From Microbacterium sp. YJN-G (GTDB taxonomy: Bacteria > Actinomycetota > Actinomycetes > Actinomycetales > Microbacteriaceae): a stretch of 64,000 bases of DNA. Below the pieces are notes generated by a model that saw nothing but the letters and a program-made list of their open reading frames with translations, searched no databases and had not been told where the DNA came from. The translations under genes and the position numbers were made by a program. Positions 2,218 through 24,057 of this stretch are shown here, piece by piece (within the stretch, counting starts at the first letter, position 1; every line of letters begins with the position of its first letter). The stretch lies in assembly GCF_015040615.1 (NCBI RefSeq), contig NZ_CP060402.1, positions 2,604,001 to 2,668,000 of the forward strand, in the 5' to 3' direction.

Positions 2218-5200
2218 TCAGCGCAGATCCCGCACGCGTGCCACCACGCCCATGCCCGCGCCCTCTCTGCGCTCCCCCGCGACGGCGATGATCAGCAGCA
2301 CCGCGCCCATCGTGGCCAGGGTGATCCACCACGGCATGGATTCTATGCCGCGGCCGAGCTGCACCGAGAAGACGAACACGTTCTCGATGGGCAGCACGAC
2401 CAGCCCGATCACGAACGGCGCGGCCAGACGGCGGGCCGCGCCCACCAGGATGGCGGCCAGGGCGATGCCCATCACGAGGATCGCCCGCCAGGTCAGCGGA
2501 TCGGTGAAGGTCGAGACGACGGATGCCGACAGCATGACGATCAGCCCGGGCGCCAGCAGCGCCCACGAGCCGCGCCAGCGGTGCGGCCAGTCGTCGAGCC
2601 GGGCCGGGGCGGTGTCGTGCGTCTGCCGCATCGCCAGCGCTCCCGCTGCGAGCAGGAACGCCCCGAGCGGCAGGGAGAACATCTCCACGCGCAGTTCGCG
2701 CGGGCTCCACGCCACGACCGCCGTGATGAAGGAGATGCCGAACAGCACCCACACCGGGGGCAGCGGCGACGAGGAGTCCGCGATCGTGCGGCGCGTTGCG
2801 CGCACCATGACGACGAGCCAGCACAGCATCAGCGTCCACATCCCCCAGATCGCGAACCAGTCCTCGGCGATCGCGGACCAGGTTCCGGCTGCGAAGGCGA
2901 GTGCCGCGGGCACCGTCACCCAGCGCGAGGTCGCGAGCCGGCCCGGGAGCGATGCGGCGGATGCCGCAGCCCCGGATGCCGCAGCACCGGATGTCGCAGA
3001 GCCGGATGTCGCAGAGCCGGCGGATGCCGCGGACGCGCCGATCGTGCGTGCATCGGAGCGCAGCATCCGCGCCGTCGCCAGCAGCACCAGCGCGGCGAGG
3101 GCACTCATGCCCACGCAGAGCAGGAAGACCCCGGCGTCACCGCCGAGCACCGGCGAGGCGTCCAGGCCGCTCCCCCAGCGCACGGACTGCGTCGTGCCGC
3201 CCAGCGCGGCGGCGGATGCCAGCAGCGCGGCCGGCGTGCGCAGCGGGCGCAGTCGGCGCAGCGGAGTGCGTGCGCCGCGACCCAGCACGACGGCGACACC
3301 GAGCAGGGCCCAGCCGGCCGCGAGCAGTCCGTGCGCCCGCCAGGGCACGGCATCCGTCCCGGCCCCGGCGACGAGCAGCACCAGCACCGGCACGATCGCC
3401 CCGGCGAGCCCCGCGGCGAAGAGGGCGGTGGCGCGCGCACTGCGCAGAGTCAGCAGTACCGCCACCAGCACCGCGCCGAGCGCGGGCGGCAGCAGGTACG
3501 CCTCGGGCAGCTCGACCCCGTTCAGCGCCCACAGCGACCAGAGTGCCCCGGTGAAGGCCGCGCCGGCCACCCACCAGCCGTAGCGGCGTCCGGCCAGCAG
3601 CGAGGTCAGAGCGGCACCGACGCCGAGGATGATGAGCACGAGGCAGGCGGTGCCGAACCCCGCCGCCTCGCGCACGAGGGCGAGACCCACGGCGATCGCC
3701 GCGGTGAGCAGCGCCGAGGCCTCGATCGCGACGCGTGCGGCATCCGCCGTCGTCTTCATGCGCCCACGTGCGACGAGTCCGTCGCGGATCAGCGCGCCGG
3801 ACGGCAGCACCAGTGCGACGAGCAGGGCGATGACCGGCAGCACGACCGGCGATCCGCTCTGCACGAGCAGCTGGGCCCCCAGGCACAGCACGACCACCGC
3901 GAGCGACGGGACGAGCATGGCGGCCGCGAGCGTGCGCACCACCACGGTGAGCCCCGCGCGGCGGGTGAGCAGCAGCGACAGCGCGAGCACGAACATGAGT
4001 CCGGTCGACAGTGCGGTCCAGCCGCTGCGCTCGAACACCACCTGCACGACCGCGATCGTGAACGGCACGGTCGCGACCACGAGGATCGCCTGCCAGTTGC
4101 GGGCCGCCACCGCCGGGACGAAGGTCGCGACGATCGCGCCGAGCAGGCCCGCCGAGGCGGTGAGGCACAGCAGTGCTATGCCGCCGACGCCGGTCAGCGC
4201 GTTGCCGGTCAATGACAGTGCGGTGGCCACGAGTGCGAGCGCGTACCCGTACCCGGCCCCCACGTGCAGGAAGCGCGAGGGGCGAGGGATGGTGCGGGCG
4301 ACCACCGCCAGCACGGCGATCGCCGCGACACCTGCCACGGGTACGAGCTGGCGGTCCTGCCAGGACAGCGGCACCGCCAGCAGCAGGGCGGCATGCGCCC
4401 CGACGACGAGGATGCCGCGGACGGATGCCGGTACGAGGTTCTTCCTCACGACGATCACGCCCGCTGCGACAGCCGTCACCGCCAGCAGCACGCCGATGGC
4501 CGCGGGCAGGATCAGCACGTGTGCGGCGGCGAGGGAGAACAGTGCACCTATCGCGTACAGCGCACAGACCACCTGCGCGGCGCCGCGCAGCACCCGCACA
4601 TCGGCGCGGTGCCGGGCGCAGAGCGCGAAGGCCCCGAACCCTGCCGAGATCACCGCGAGGGCGATGATCTGCGGCCAGCCGCCCGGCCCGAGCACCGGCC
4701 CGGGCGCGACGACGGCGCCCGCGGGCGCGCCCACCGAGCTCAGCACCGTGGTGCCGATCATCGCGGCGTACAGAACTGCCGGGGCGCTGGTCACGCCGGC
4801 GGCGAGCCCGGCGCCCACGGCGAGCGGCAGACGCGGAGTGCGCCGTGGCAGGGGCACGAGAGCACCCACGATGAGCATGACCACGGCACCCGCCGGCACG
4901 ATCGCGAGGATCCATTCGAAGGCGCGGTCGCCGTGCACGAGGCTCGACGCGGCGAAGGCACCGGCGGCCACGCCGAGCACGCCGGCCACGGCGCCCCACA
5001 CGCCCGGCATGGCCTGCGCCGCGGCCAGCACCGCGTGCACCGCGAGCACGCCGAGCACGACGGCGATGGCGATCGGTTCGGCGTCCGCGAACAGGATCCG
5101 CGCGACGGCGAGCACCGCGACGACCAGCTGCACGGCGGTGAGAGCGGCGACCTCGGGCGCGAGGGCGCGCCGGACGGGGCGCGGAGCGGCATCCGGTTCG

Positions 5201-6129
5201 GTCTGAGCCGTCTCGCGAGCGGGGAACCGCGGTGCGAGACGCGGGAGCAGGGCGATCAGGCCGGTGGCGGCGAAGCCGGCCGCCGCCAGCAGAAGAGCGG
5301 CAGGCAGTGCGGTCTGCACGGCGAAGCACAGCAGCGCCGGCACGGATGCCAGGGCGGGGAGGGCGGCCCAGAGCCAGATGCGGATGCGAGCGCGCAGCGC
5401 CGCCGCGAGCAGCAACCCGCCCGCAACCGCGGTCGCGAGGGCCGCGGATGTCCAGGAGGCGGCGTCGTCTGCGAAGGACCCCGCCACGGCCTGCACATCG
5501 AGGCCGACGAACACCAGGCCCAGTCCCCCGACAGCCTCGGCCGAGGACTGCAGGCGGCGCCGGGCGAGCAGCCACGCGCCGGCCAGGAACGCGAGCGTCA
5601 CCACCCCGATGATCGTGCTGCGCACCGCGCGGTCGGCGAGTTCGGGGTTGAAGAAGGTGAACACGATCGCCGCGACCGCGAACAGTGCCGCTCCCGCCGT
5701 GGCGAGCACCGACTGCAGGCTCGCGCCATCGTTCGCCGGCGCTCCGGCCCCGCGCCCTGCCGGCCGCACTCCTTGCCCGTGAGAAACCACATTCTGCGTG
5801 AGAAACCCTGCCTGCGCGCGTTTGTCATGCGCGATGTGGTTTCTCACCGAGGGGCCGGACAGCGAGGGGCCGGACGGCACGGGGGCGCCGGCGGCGGGGG
5901 CGGATGCCGCGGGGACGGCACGGGGGATGCGCAGCCGGGCCGCCTCGCGCACGCGCAGTGCGTCCACGGCGACGCGCGACGCGTGCCACAGCGTGGCACC
6001 CTGTGCCCCCGCCAGGTCCGCGCCGCAGCGCGGGCAGCGCCCGCTCATCAGCGGCGCCGACTCGCAGACCGGGCAGGTGTTCGCATCCTGCAGCCGCGTG
6101 ATCGCGGCATCCGCCCATCCCCCGCTCAT
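2218..6129 (-). CDS. Large polytopic membrane protein, SCO7613 C-terminal domain type
   Basis: Product about 1303 aa. It starts with a zinc-ribbon-like CPVCESAPLMSGRCPRCGADL, then a low-complexity Pro/Ala linker, then a very long run of hydrophobic helices (dozens) reaching the C-terminus, which resembles the actinobacterial SCO7613 C-terminal domain family. Function is unknown. The ATG at 6129 overlaps the stop of the upstream HTH gene as ATGA, so translation is coupled; an in-frame ATG further upstream would overlap that gene more and lacks reason. Odd points: residues around 100-130 are encoded by a palindromic element (5779-5847) that also occurs between genes at 9770-9840, and a Ser/Ala/Thr-Gly-rich tract near 2950-3040 is made of short tandem repeats of GGATGCC-type sequence. 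Confidence 0.85.
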   Translation of the reverse strand: MSGGWADAAITRLQDANTCPVCESAPLMSGRCPRCGADLAGAQGATLWHASRVAVDALRVREAARLRIPRAVPAASAPAAGAPVPSGPSLSGPSVRNHIAHDKRAQAGFLTQNVVSHGQGVRPAGRGAGAPANDGASLQSVLATAGAALFAVAAIVFTFFNPELADRAVRSTIIGVVTLAFLAGAWLLARRRLQSSAEAVGGLGLVFVGLDVQAVAGSFADDAASWTSAALATAVAGGLLLAAALRARIRIWLWAALPALASVPALLCFAVQTALPAALLLAAAGFAATGLIALLPRLAPRFPARETAQTEPDAAPRPVRRALAPEVAALTAVQLVVAVLAVARILFADAEPIAIAVVLGVLAVHAVLAAAQAMPGVWGAVAGVLGVAAGAFAASSLVHGDRAFEWILAIVPAGAVVMLIVGALVPLPRRTPRLPLAVGAGLAAGVTSAPAVLYAAMIGTTVLSSVGAPAGAVVAPGPVLGPGGWPQIIALAVISAGFGAFALCARHRADVRVLRGAAQVVCALYAIGALFSLAAAHVLILPAAIGVLLAVTAVAAGVIVVRKNLVPASVRGILVVGAHAALLLAVPLSWQDRQLVPVAGVAAIAVLAVVARTIPRPSRFLHVGAGYGYALALVATALSLTGNALTGVGGIALLCLTASAGLLGAIVATFVPAVAARNWQAILVVATVPFTIAVVQVVFERSGWTALSTGLMFVLALSLLLTRRAGLTVVVRTLAAAMLVPSLAVVVLCLGAQLLVQSGSPVVLPVIALLVALVLPSGALIRDGLVARGRMKTTADAARVAIEASALLTAAIAVGLALVREAAGFGTACLVLIILGVGAALTSLLAGRRYGWWVAGAAFTGALWSLWALNGVELPEAYLLPPALGAVLVAVLLTLRSARATALFAAGLAGAIVPVLVLLVAGAGTDAVPWRAHGLLAAGWALLGVAVVLGRGARTPLRRLRPLRTPAALLASAAALGGTTQSVRWGSGLDASPVLGGDAGVFLLCVGMSALAALVLLATARMLRSDARTIGASAASAGSATSGSATSGAAASGAAASAASLPGRLATSRWVTVPAALAFAAGTWSAIAEDWFAIWGMWTLMLCWLVVMVRATRRTIADSSSPLPPVWVLFGISFITAVVAWSPRELRVEMFSLPLGAFLLAAGALAMRQTHDTAPARLDDWPHRWRGSWALLAPGLIVMLSASVVSTFTDPLTWRAILVMGIALAAILVGAARRLAAPFVIGLVVLPIENVFVFSVQLGRGIESMPWWITLATMGAVLLIIAVAGERREGAGMGVVARVRDLR
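5779..5847. repeat. Palindromic element, copy 1, in frame inside the membrane-protein gene
   Basis: Outer arms are gtgagaaaccacat (5779-5792) and its exact complement (5834-5847), 14 bp. Inside is a second gtgagaaaccctg copy. Read on the minus strand in frame it encodes VRNHIAHDK...GFLTQNVVSH. The copy at 9770-9840 encodes a like peptide (RNHIRHEK...GFLTMNVVS) in a place with no gene, which indicates that the element, not the host protein, is the conserved unit. Confidence 0.85.
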
Positions 6130-9769: not shown

Positions 9770-9840
9770 CGCGAGAAACCACATTCATCGTGAGAAACCC
9801 GCGCAGAACGGGTTTCTCGTGGCGAATGTGGTTTCTCGCG
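9770..9840. repeat. Palindromic element, copy 2, intergenic, nested hairpins
   Basis: Outer arms cgcgagaaaccacattc (9770-9786) pair perfectly over 17 bp with 9824-9840. Inner arms gagaaacccg (9792-9801) pair with 9809-9818. Both stems share the core GAGAAACC. It lies 30 nt beyond the stop of the GH13 gene and could also act as its terminator. See copy 1 at 5779-5847. Confidence 0.85.
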
Positions 9841-9869: not shown

Positions 9870-11783
9870 TCAGGGGAGGGAGACGCCGGGGAGGGACCAG
9901 ACGGCGAAGGCGGGGCCTTCGGCCGCGAGCGCCACGGCGCCGTCGGATGCCACCGCCAGGGTCGCATCTCCGAAGAGCGCCTCCGCGGCGGCGGCACCGG
10001 GCAGGGCGCCGGGGGCGAGTTCGGCATCCGCTCCCCCGCGCGTGGCGAGCACGAGGATGCTCTCCTCGGCGCTCTCGCGCACGAACACCACGGTCTCGTC
10101 ATCGGCGTGCAGCCAGCGCATGCCACCCTCGCCCAGCACGGGATGCGCGCGGCGCAGTCCGATCAGCTCGCGGTACAGCGCGAGGCGTTCGGAGAGCTCG
10201 GGTTCGTCCTGCCGCGACCACGGCATGGGCGTGCGGCTGGCCTCGCCGTCGGCGCCGGTGAGTCCGAACTCGTCTCCGGCGAAGACCACCGGCACGCCCG
10301 GCATGGTCATCGACAGGCCGACCGCGACGGGCACCGCACCCGCCGCGGCATTCGTCGCGAAGCGGCCGGTGTCGTGGGTGTCGAGCGGCTGCATGTTGCC
10401 CAGCCGCACACGCCACGGGATGCCGGCGGTGAATCGGGTCACGGCATCGGCGAACTCGCGCGCCGTGTACCGCGGGATGCCGCCGATCGGCTGCCCGAAG
10501 AACCACGGCTCGGTGCGCTCGTCCCCCTCGGCGGTGAGGTAGGGCTCACCCGTCGGCTCGCTGAGCCAGCCCCACAGCGGCCGGGTGAACGAGGGGTAGG
10601 TCATGGCGCCGTGCCAGCCGTCGCCCTGCAGATCGCTGGCGGCGTCGTTGGTCGACTCGCCGAGCAGGATGGCATCGGGGTTGATGCGCAGCATGGTCTC
10701 GCGCAGCAGCGAGCGCACCTCGGCGTTCAGGTCGACGTCGCCCAGGCGCCCGGTCATGTTCGCGACGTCGATGCGCCAGCCGTCGAGCGAGTACGGCGGC
10801 TTCAGCCACTTCGCCACGACCGAATCTTCGCCGGTGATGAAGCGCTCGCGCAGCGCCGGCGATGCCCAGTTGAACTTCGGCAGCGTGGGGGTGCCCAGCC
10901 ACGACTCGTACTGCGTGTTCGCGTCGTCGGTGAAGTAGTAGAAGCTCTCGGTCTCGGCACCGGGGTTGCCGAGCGCCTGCTGGAACCATTCGTGCCGGTC
11001 GCCGGAGTGGTTGCTGGTGAGATCGCCGATGACCCGGATGCCGCGGGCGTGCGCCTCTTCCACGAGCCGCGCGTACGCCTCATCGCCGCCGAGCAGCGGG
11101 TCGACCGAGTCGAAGCTCGCGGCGTCGTAGCGGTGGTTGGAGCCTGCCGGGAAGACGGGGGTCAGGTACAGCAGGTCGACGCCGAGGGCGACCAGGTGGT
11201 CGAGGCGCTCGATGATGCCAGGGATGTCGCCGCCGTAGAACTGCTGCGAGCGGCCGGGCATGACCGGGTCGACCGCGGCATCCCACTCCGCCGGGATGGC
11301 CCACTCCGGGGTCGGATGCCGATCGGCCTGGGCCGACCGGGCGAAGCGGTCGGGGAACACCTGGTACATCACCGCTCCGTGCAGCCACGCCGGCGGGGCC
11401 GGGTTGGCGACGAGGGCGAAGTCCTCGGCATCCAGGGTCTCGAGGGTGTGGATGCCGGTCTGGTTCACCCATTCGACCCGCCCGTTCTCGTGCAGCAGCA
11501 CGAAGCGGTAGCCGTGGCGGGGGTTGCGCACCGCGATCGGCGCCTGCCACCAGTCCCAGCCGTCGGCAGACCCGATGCGCTCGGCGTCGGTCCACTCCGG
11601 CTCGTGGTCGGGGTTGGAGCGCGTGCGCACGGCGGCCAGCGGGCCGTACCCTTCGGGCACGCGCAGGCGCACGATCACCGTCTCGCCCAGCTGCGGGGCG
11701 TCGTTCGAGACGTACAGCGGCGAGCCGTCGTGGTGCGGGAGGACGGGACCGGTGAGAGTGCCGGTGATCGATTCGGGGGTCAT
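9870..11783 (-). CDS. GH13 alpha-glycosidase (neopullulanase/maltogenic amylase type)
   Basis: 637 aa, cytoplasmic (no signal peptide). An N-terminal beta-sandwich (about 1-125) precedes the (beta/alpha)8 barrel. The four GH13 regions are intact: DLTSNHSGD (about 254-261), GWRIDVANM with nucleophile D339, LLGEST with acid E376, and DTHD with H470/D471; the usual (Y/M)QVFPDRF entry is present too. It would split imported maltodextrin. It follows the maltose-type ABC genes on the same strand after a 184-nt GC-rich, hairpin-prone gap (11893-11957 carries repeats of cgccggcgacat), which may lower its expression. ATG 11783 has AAAGG upstream; ten residues of further upstream frame have no ribosome site. 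Confidence 0.9.
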   Translation of the reverse strand: MTPESITGTLTGPVLPHHDGSPLYVSNDAPQLGETVIVRLRVPEGYGPLAAVRTRSNPDHEPEWTDAERIGSADGWDWWQAPIAVRNPRHGYRFVLLHENGRVEWVNQTGIHTLETLDAEDFALVANPAPPAWLHGAVMYQVFPDRFARSAQADRHPTPEWAIPAEWDAAVDPVMPGRSQQFYGGDIPGIIERLDHLVALGVDLLYLTPVFPAGSNHRYDAASFDSVDPLLGGDEAYARLVEEAHARGIRVIGDLTSNHSGDRHEWFQQALGNPGAETESFYYFTDDANTQYESWLGTPTLPKFNWASPALRERFITGEDSVVAKWLKPPYSLDGWRIDVANMTGRLGDVDLNAEVRSLLRETMLRINPDAILLGESTNDAASDLQGDGWHGAMTYPSFTRPLWGWLSEPTGEPYLTAEGDERTEPWFFGQPIGGIPRYTAREFADAVTRFTAGIPWRVRLGNMQPLDTHDTGRFATNAAAGAVPVAVGLSMTMPGVPVVFAGDEFGLTGADGEASRTPMPWSRQDEPELSERLALYRELIGLRRAHPVLGEGGMRWLHADDETVVFVRESAEESILVLATRGGADAELAPGALPGAAAAEALFGDATLAVASDGAVALAAEGPAFAVWSLPGVSLP

Positions 11784-23989: not shown

Positions 23990-24057
23990 CGCTGGGCCAC
24001 TGAGGCTCTCGAAGGGCCCTGCCACCGCTGGGTCCCTGAGGCTCTCGAAGGGCCCTG
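23990..24057. repeat. Two direct copies of a dispersed 32-bp repeat
   Basis: Copies at 23990-24021 and 24026-24057 differ at two positions and share tgaggctctcgaagggccct. The same core, as an inverted pair, is at 63101-63156. It is 3' of the DUF402 gene and upstream of menF. Related sequences are a known dispersed repeat in Microbacteriaceae genomes as far as I recall. Confidence 0.8.

Follow-up and report, generated by a model that had tools for sequence, protein, structure and literature searches.

REPs are short, dispersed intergenic palindromes that favour the 3′ ends of genes, and the RAYT gene is itself bracketed by REPs. To our knowledge, RAYTs account for the dispersed palindromes of bacteria in some lineages only. 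Three other described systems are relevant here. Rickettsia palindromic elements are ~150 bp long and nearly half of them lie in open reading frames (PMC10969869); PARCELs are coding repeats arranged in tandem, with a unit of 75 nt (PMC2996958); and the promoters of AbiEi-family genes contain two or four inverted repeats of 23 bp to which the encoded proteins bind (PMC7319586).

The element described here, from Microbacterium sp. YJN-G and its relatives, resembles the REP/RAYT system in its many short dispersed intergenic palindromes, in its preference for gene 3′ ends and in bracketing a single gene of DNA-processing type. It differs in being a 65-bp four-box array with a 19-bp pitch, and the bracketed gene belongs to a different protein family, an AbiEi-like protein with a predicted Vsr/homing-endonuclease-like fold instead of a Y1 transposase. 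Similar to PARCELs, the palindromic DNA can be translated as protein; compared to those tandem repeats (PMC2996958), the present element is dispersed and mostly intergenic.

The window, a stretch of 64,000 nucleotides of the YJN-G chromosome, contains two copies. As the first-pass annotation had stated, the arms GTGAGAAACCACAT (5779-5792) and their exact complement (5834-5847) are both present, and the palindrome is read in frame (peptide ...VRNHIAHDKRAQAGFLTQNVVSHG...) within the SCO7613-type membrane protein gene, called on the minus strand at 2218..6129 with its ATG at 6129 and its stop ending at 2218. The copy at 9770-9840 likewise proved to be palindromic and intergenic. A repeat search of the window gave 28-nt arms of 82% complementarity for the first copy (5781-5845) and 32-nt arms of 88% for the second, and a gapped 12+12-nt pattern matched twice in the window, compared to a maximum of zero in 100 shuffles. 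From box positions in the sequence, the 65-bp element at 5781..5845 comprises the outer box 1 GAGAAACC (5781..5788, plus strand), the inner box 2 GAGAAACC 19 bp further on (5800..5807, plus), the inner box 2′ CGTTTGTC (5819..5826, minus), which has two mismatches against GGTTTCTC, and the outer box 1′ GGTTTCTC (5838..5845, minus). Between the second element (9773..9837) and the 3′ end of the neighbouring GH13 alpha-amylase-type gene (9870..11783, minus strand) there are 32 bp.

In the whole genome, exact GAGAAACCA sites number 36, against two for the reversed-word control. Two thirds of them (24/36) bound 12 palindromes at either end; a thirteenth copy carries one mismatch, giving 13 copies when up to two mismatches are allowed. 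The element follows one plan of four 8-bp boxes in the order forward-forward-reverse-reverse, 65 bp long and rarely 64. Among 153 element rows from YJN-G and related genomes, in which a few five-box arrays are counted twice, forward boxes begin at position 0 in 148 and at 19 in 116, and reversed boxes at 38 in 115 and at 57 in 144, up to one mismatch per box being allowed. Extra boxes with at most two mismatches occur 19 times one 19-bp step beyond an end (nine left, ten right), oriented like the near arm with one exception, compared to about 0.3 at each off-pitch position.

A search against Microbacterium genomes revealed a dispersed family. BLAST matched 27 of the 149 genomes, and covariance model matches were found in 102 of the 149, in 39 of 398 genomes drawn from the family and in 26 of 297 drawn from the order; these counts are lower bounds, with 6 to 32 candidates scored per genome, and the weak matches may be ordinary hairpins. 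The exact pattern occurs in 21 stretches of named records, whose titles give Microbacterium or unplaced actinobacteria. The geometry is shared by other species of Microbacterium and by other genera, with different box words, as do the families f6, f9 and f14 of the order, with words such as GAGAAGCCAC, GAGATAGCGC and GAGATCGCAC. The element was not found in viral contigs, plasmids or phages, each searched with one pattern or one short query, and a phage, plasmid or viral origin was rejected on that basis. An Rfam identity was also rejected, the only matches being miRNA hairpins below the gathering score, which we take as chance. The annotation had known of no such description for Microbacteriaceae; among the matches listed from the open-licence literature, none describes an element of this kind in the family.

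Comparison among copies bears on whether the element acts as a structure or as a set of sites. The outer boxes are nearly invariant and the spacers variable, although this invariance is in part ascertainment, as the outer boxes belonged to the search pattern. At one orthologous site in eight genomes (28 pairs), a comparison less prone to ascertainment in which a genome with a decayed copy would be missed, identity is 100% in the outer boxes, 93% in the inner boxes and 57% in the spacers and loop. This orthologous element adjoins a LacI-type regulator in eight Microbacterium genomes (L151, L017, L198, L115, L184, L200, L213 and L225), the regulator being identified by a profile scan in L151. 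Spelling the box in the RlmG-type genes of G000 (the YJN-G genome) and G071 takes two rare codons, AAA (5%) and CCA (3%), and both genes retain them.

A bidirectional terminator or mRNA-protecting hairpin, whose function would reside in the RNA hairpin formed where genes end, fits several observations. Strong RNA hairpins are predicted for both window copies on both strands (z −4.8 to −9.3), elements lie at a median of 38 nt from adjoining 3′ ends (n=114) compared to 99 nt from 5′ ends (n=72), and convergent gaps hold 27 of the 84 intergenic copies, against 47 of 233 gaps of at least 75 bp in the same stretches, element-bearing gaps included. If the pairing were kept by selection, as in intrinsic terminators, the two arms of one copy should match each other better than arms taken from different copies. 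Within genomes they do not: same-copy pairing is 0.799 and other-copy pairing 0.797, and 713 of 2000 shuffles reach 0.799 (G138, with three copies, and unlisted copies of G031, G034 and G067 being left out). An earlier comparison had stood above its shuffles (78.3 vs 75.7%), an excess that the within-genome comparison did not show; the element set in one analysis was 60 of 66, omitting three offset registers (L022, L047), two copies of 64 nt and one weak copy (L045). Thus the boxes are conserved and the arm pairing is not, and since pairing is equal within and between copies, the repeat acts as an array of inverted sites rather than a structure kept by compensation. The conservation of box letters beyond pairing, together with in-gene copies that precede the methyltransferase domain of RlmG-type genes and, in a Nei-type gene, both the H2TH and the zinc-finger domain, makes a terminator or protective hairpin quite unlikely in our judgement.

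The chromosomal setting was examined in 81 stretches picked for strong elements. Of 96 element rows, in which two five-box arrays (L168, L205) are counted twice, 84 are intergenic, nine overlap gene ends and three lie inside genes, all three in YJN-G. The intergenic copies occupy 45 tandem, 27 convergent and 12 divergent gaps; in other taxa, 31 copies comprise 17 convergent, 12 tandem, none divergent, one at an edge and one inside a gene, an orientation that again favours a hairpin at 3′ ends. One stretch (L207:2688-3366, in G064) bears three elements in succession in a long divergent intergenic region. On six complete chromosomes, 60 of 72 copies fall in the dnaA-nearest half (61 of 75 with G138, 1/3), as might be expected if the boxes bound a nucleoid or segregation protein and organised the chromosome. 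The bias is absent from G119 (8/13) and G085 (2/5), however, and the count is inflated by copies shared by descent, which its binomial statistic ignores, leaves out copies of G031, G034 and G067, and stands without a genome-wide intergenic control. As box words differ among related species as well, we regard a chromosome-organising role as improbable.

At some sites the element is present in one relative and absent from another, and copies are more alike within genomes than between them. From this pattern among relatives, without target duplications, we infer that the elements may be mobile. Dispersal of this kind would suit a non-autonomous transposon (MITE) moved by another transposase, with the bracketed gene as a passenger. 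Yet no target-site duplication was found: all six settings fell within the maximum of 200 shuffles (for 8-mers two, against a mean of 0.5 and a largest value of three), and of two candidate empty sites that were aligned, neither was clean. None of 13 recurrent neighbouring gene families, judged by eye with flanking genes partly profile-scanned, was recognised as transposase-like, and a transposase adjoining the elements was rejected on these grounds. A RAYT as the cognate gene was rejected as well, as PF01797 is matchless in 148 of the 149 genomes, including YJN-G, and its single match is in G041, which has no match to the element model. A MITE of another transposase therefore appears to have only a small chance of being the correct explanation.

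The gene associated with the element has ~320 codons. It adjoins elements in 14 genomes, on both sides wherever both sides are readable; the loci were fetched for carrying elements, and the association is thus seen from the element side alone. In 12 genomes (G042, G036, G134, G081, G071, G080, G004, G114, G067, Microbacterium sp. 18062, G497 and G325, the last of another genus), element pairs 1,052-1,106 bp apart enclose this one gene family. One side of the G046 unit is lost at a contig end, and in G030 a truncated gene (L030:1024-1745) still lies between elements 592 bp apart. Their flanking sequences place the units at several distinct loci. The downstream element overlaps the stop codon or lies within ~5 nt of it in 11 of the 12 units (~24 nt in G497), and some 51-137 bp separate the upstream element from the gene start, starts being uncertain. 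An EKP-type C-terminal tail, found in 26 of 120 homologs, overlaps the element in DNA in G004, G114 and G036, and the motif occurs in none of 240 control proteins and in 39 of 2400 internal windows.

The encoded protein points to the AbiE type IV toxin-antitoxin systems (AbiEi, Rv2827c). PADLOC matched AbiEi in all four proteins scanned (best E 1.5e-7 to 0.0025), precomputed PF09407 assignments exist for 10 of 120 listed homologs, and Pfam AbiEi_4 was found in one of 70 members (E 0.0023), with no Pfam nuclease domain in any of the 70. Of 7,990 scored candidates, 736 qualify as homologs at E 0.001. In its AlphaFold model (mean pLDDT 92.4), the top Foldseek match is Rv2827c of the AbiEi family (1zel; prob 0.94, whole-chain TM-score 0.31), and there are further matches to homing endonuclease I-Bth0305I (prob 0.97) and Vsr (prob 0.66); none of the matches attains E 0.001, and TM-scores over the whole chain are low. 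As far as this model goes, the protein resembles an AbiEi antitoxin joined to a Vsr/homing-endonuclease-like fold, in which E195, D226, E237 and D239, invariant in 70 sequences, would be putative active-site residues. Nothing linking AbiEi with Vsr appears among the matches listed from the open-licence literature. Compared to AbiE, where the two or four inverted repeats lie upstream of the gene (PMC7319586), the arrays here also occur downstream of the gene and across the chromosome, and the protein has an added nuclease-like domain. The bracket holds a single gene and has no room inside for an AbiEii/DUF1814 toxin gene.

The association has its exceptions. A close relative of the AbiEi-nuclease was not found in the 1.26 Mb of YJN-G sequence covered (35% of 3.62 Mb), and the YJN-G locus matching the G080/G081 unit site holds an unrelated hydrolase and no GAGAAACCA site. 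No such gene was found in the f6, f9 and f14 stretches. The correlation between box word and protein is weak (r 0.49, reached by 234 of 5000 permutations). In YJN-G the elements may by now be kept for binding although no cognate gene lies close by.

A second gene-palindrome set turned up during the search for that relative. A distant AbiEi-like gene (L361:1925-3345, G000:C1:661925-663345; profile E 5.5e-6), whose REase_MTES_1575-type end scores 23.3 bits against a Pfam cut-off of 38.2, is flanked on each side by two copies of a ~60-bp palindrome with the word CGCGGGTCCC, two of the four being degenerate (64 and 70%). Further CGCGGGTCCC palindromes lie at L353:14155, L359:16832, L364:5173-5575 (four in succession) and L366:8457. 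This set would be the best independent support for a gene-palindrome rule. The words of the two sets, GAGAAACC and CGCGGGTCCC, are unrelated, and together the sets may point to a general rule. The same genome holds a third dispersed repeat with the words GGTCCCTGAG and TCTCGAAGGG (61 and 43 matches in 1.26 Mb), with sites at 24007-24043 and 63140 of the window and at L353:17020-17160.

Copies read in frame are few and occupy linkers. In the SCO7613-type protein, the element lies in an Ala/Pro/Ser linker between the zinc ribbon and the membrane part. The peptide was not seen at any of the 29 remaining loci of this type (the linkers of L074 and L093 being incompletely read), and among 120 listed homologs a one-frame pattern found it only in P0121, 99% identical. 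Of the 34 RlmG-type linkers read (of 50), those of G000, G071 and G092 contain the element in frame, at two linker positions, the G092 copy having a different place; in G000 it replaces the usual linker instead of simply being added. The 74 linkers read among 120 RlmG-type homologs include related peptides in P0001-P0010 and P0023 and another, of the G092 type, in P0018. In a Nei-type glycosylase gene of family f9, an in-frame copy separates the N-terminal domain from the H2TH domain, and the third in-gene copy of YJN-G lies within the C-terminal end of an acetyltransferase-like open reading frame, where gene calling is weak. Whichever strand is read, two of the three element frames are open in 84-88% of the 146 copies, compared to 42-44% in mononucleotide-shuffled copies.

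The first-pass annotation had likened the palindrome to the Rickettsia elements. That comparison holds for a dispersed palindromic family with in-frame copies in unrelated genes (SCO7613-, RlmG- and Nei-type). It fails in other respects. A core of 65 bp, with 3 of the 96 rows lying within genes, stands against ~150 bp and nearly half in open reading frames for the Rickettsia elements (PMC10969869). In addition, the in-frame copies employ two different reading frames, individual copies do not preserve their hairpin pairing, and a bracketed gene is evident here.

Altogether, we consider it rather probable, and the best explanation at hand, that a dispersed four-box element is served by an AbiEi-nuclease that binds the boxes and spread them. 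By analogy with AbiEi-family antitoxins at their own promoters, the AbiEi-type winged-helix part would bind the boxes, one monomer per box, and the Vsr/homing-endonuclease-like part may have driven the spread of the system, much as RAYTs spread REPs. Copies would be left where they are least harmful, at gene 3′ ends and occasionally in frame in flexible linkers.

The bracketing suggests a previously unrecognised dispersed-palindrome system in which RAYTs are nearly absent and an unrelated, common and unexplained type of protein is bracketed in their stead. More tentatively, and at somewhat less than even credence, solo actinobacterial AbiEi-nucleases might form a class of genes, self-dispersing or domesticated and each paired with a four-box or nested palindrome of its own, in which the 19-bp pitch holds order-wide as the word changes, and which seed the origin-proximal halves of chromosomes and insert peptides as a by-product. 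Through the bracketing, solo AbiEi-nuclease genes would gain a testable role, protein linkers a possible route for the gain of peptides, and these bacteria a chromosome-wide set of sites, origin-biased in most genomes counted.
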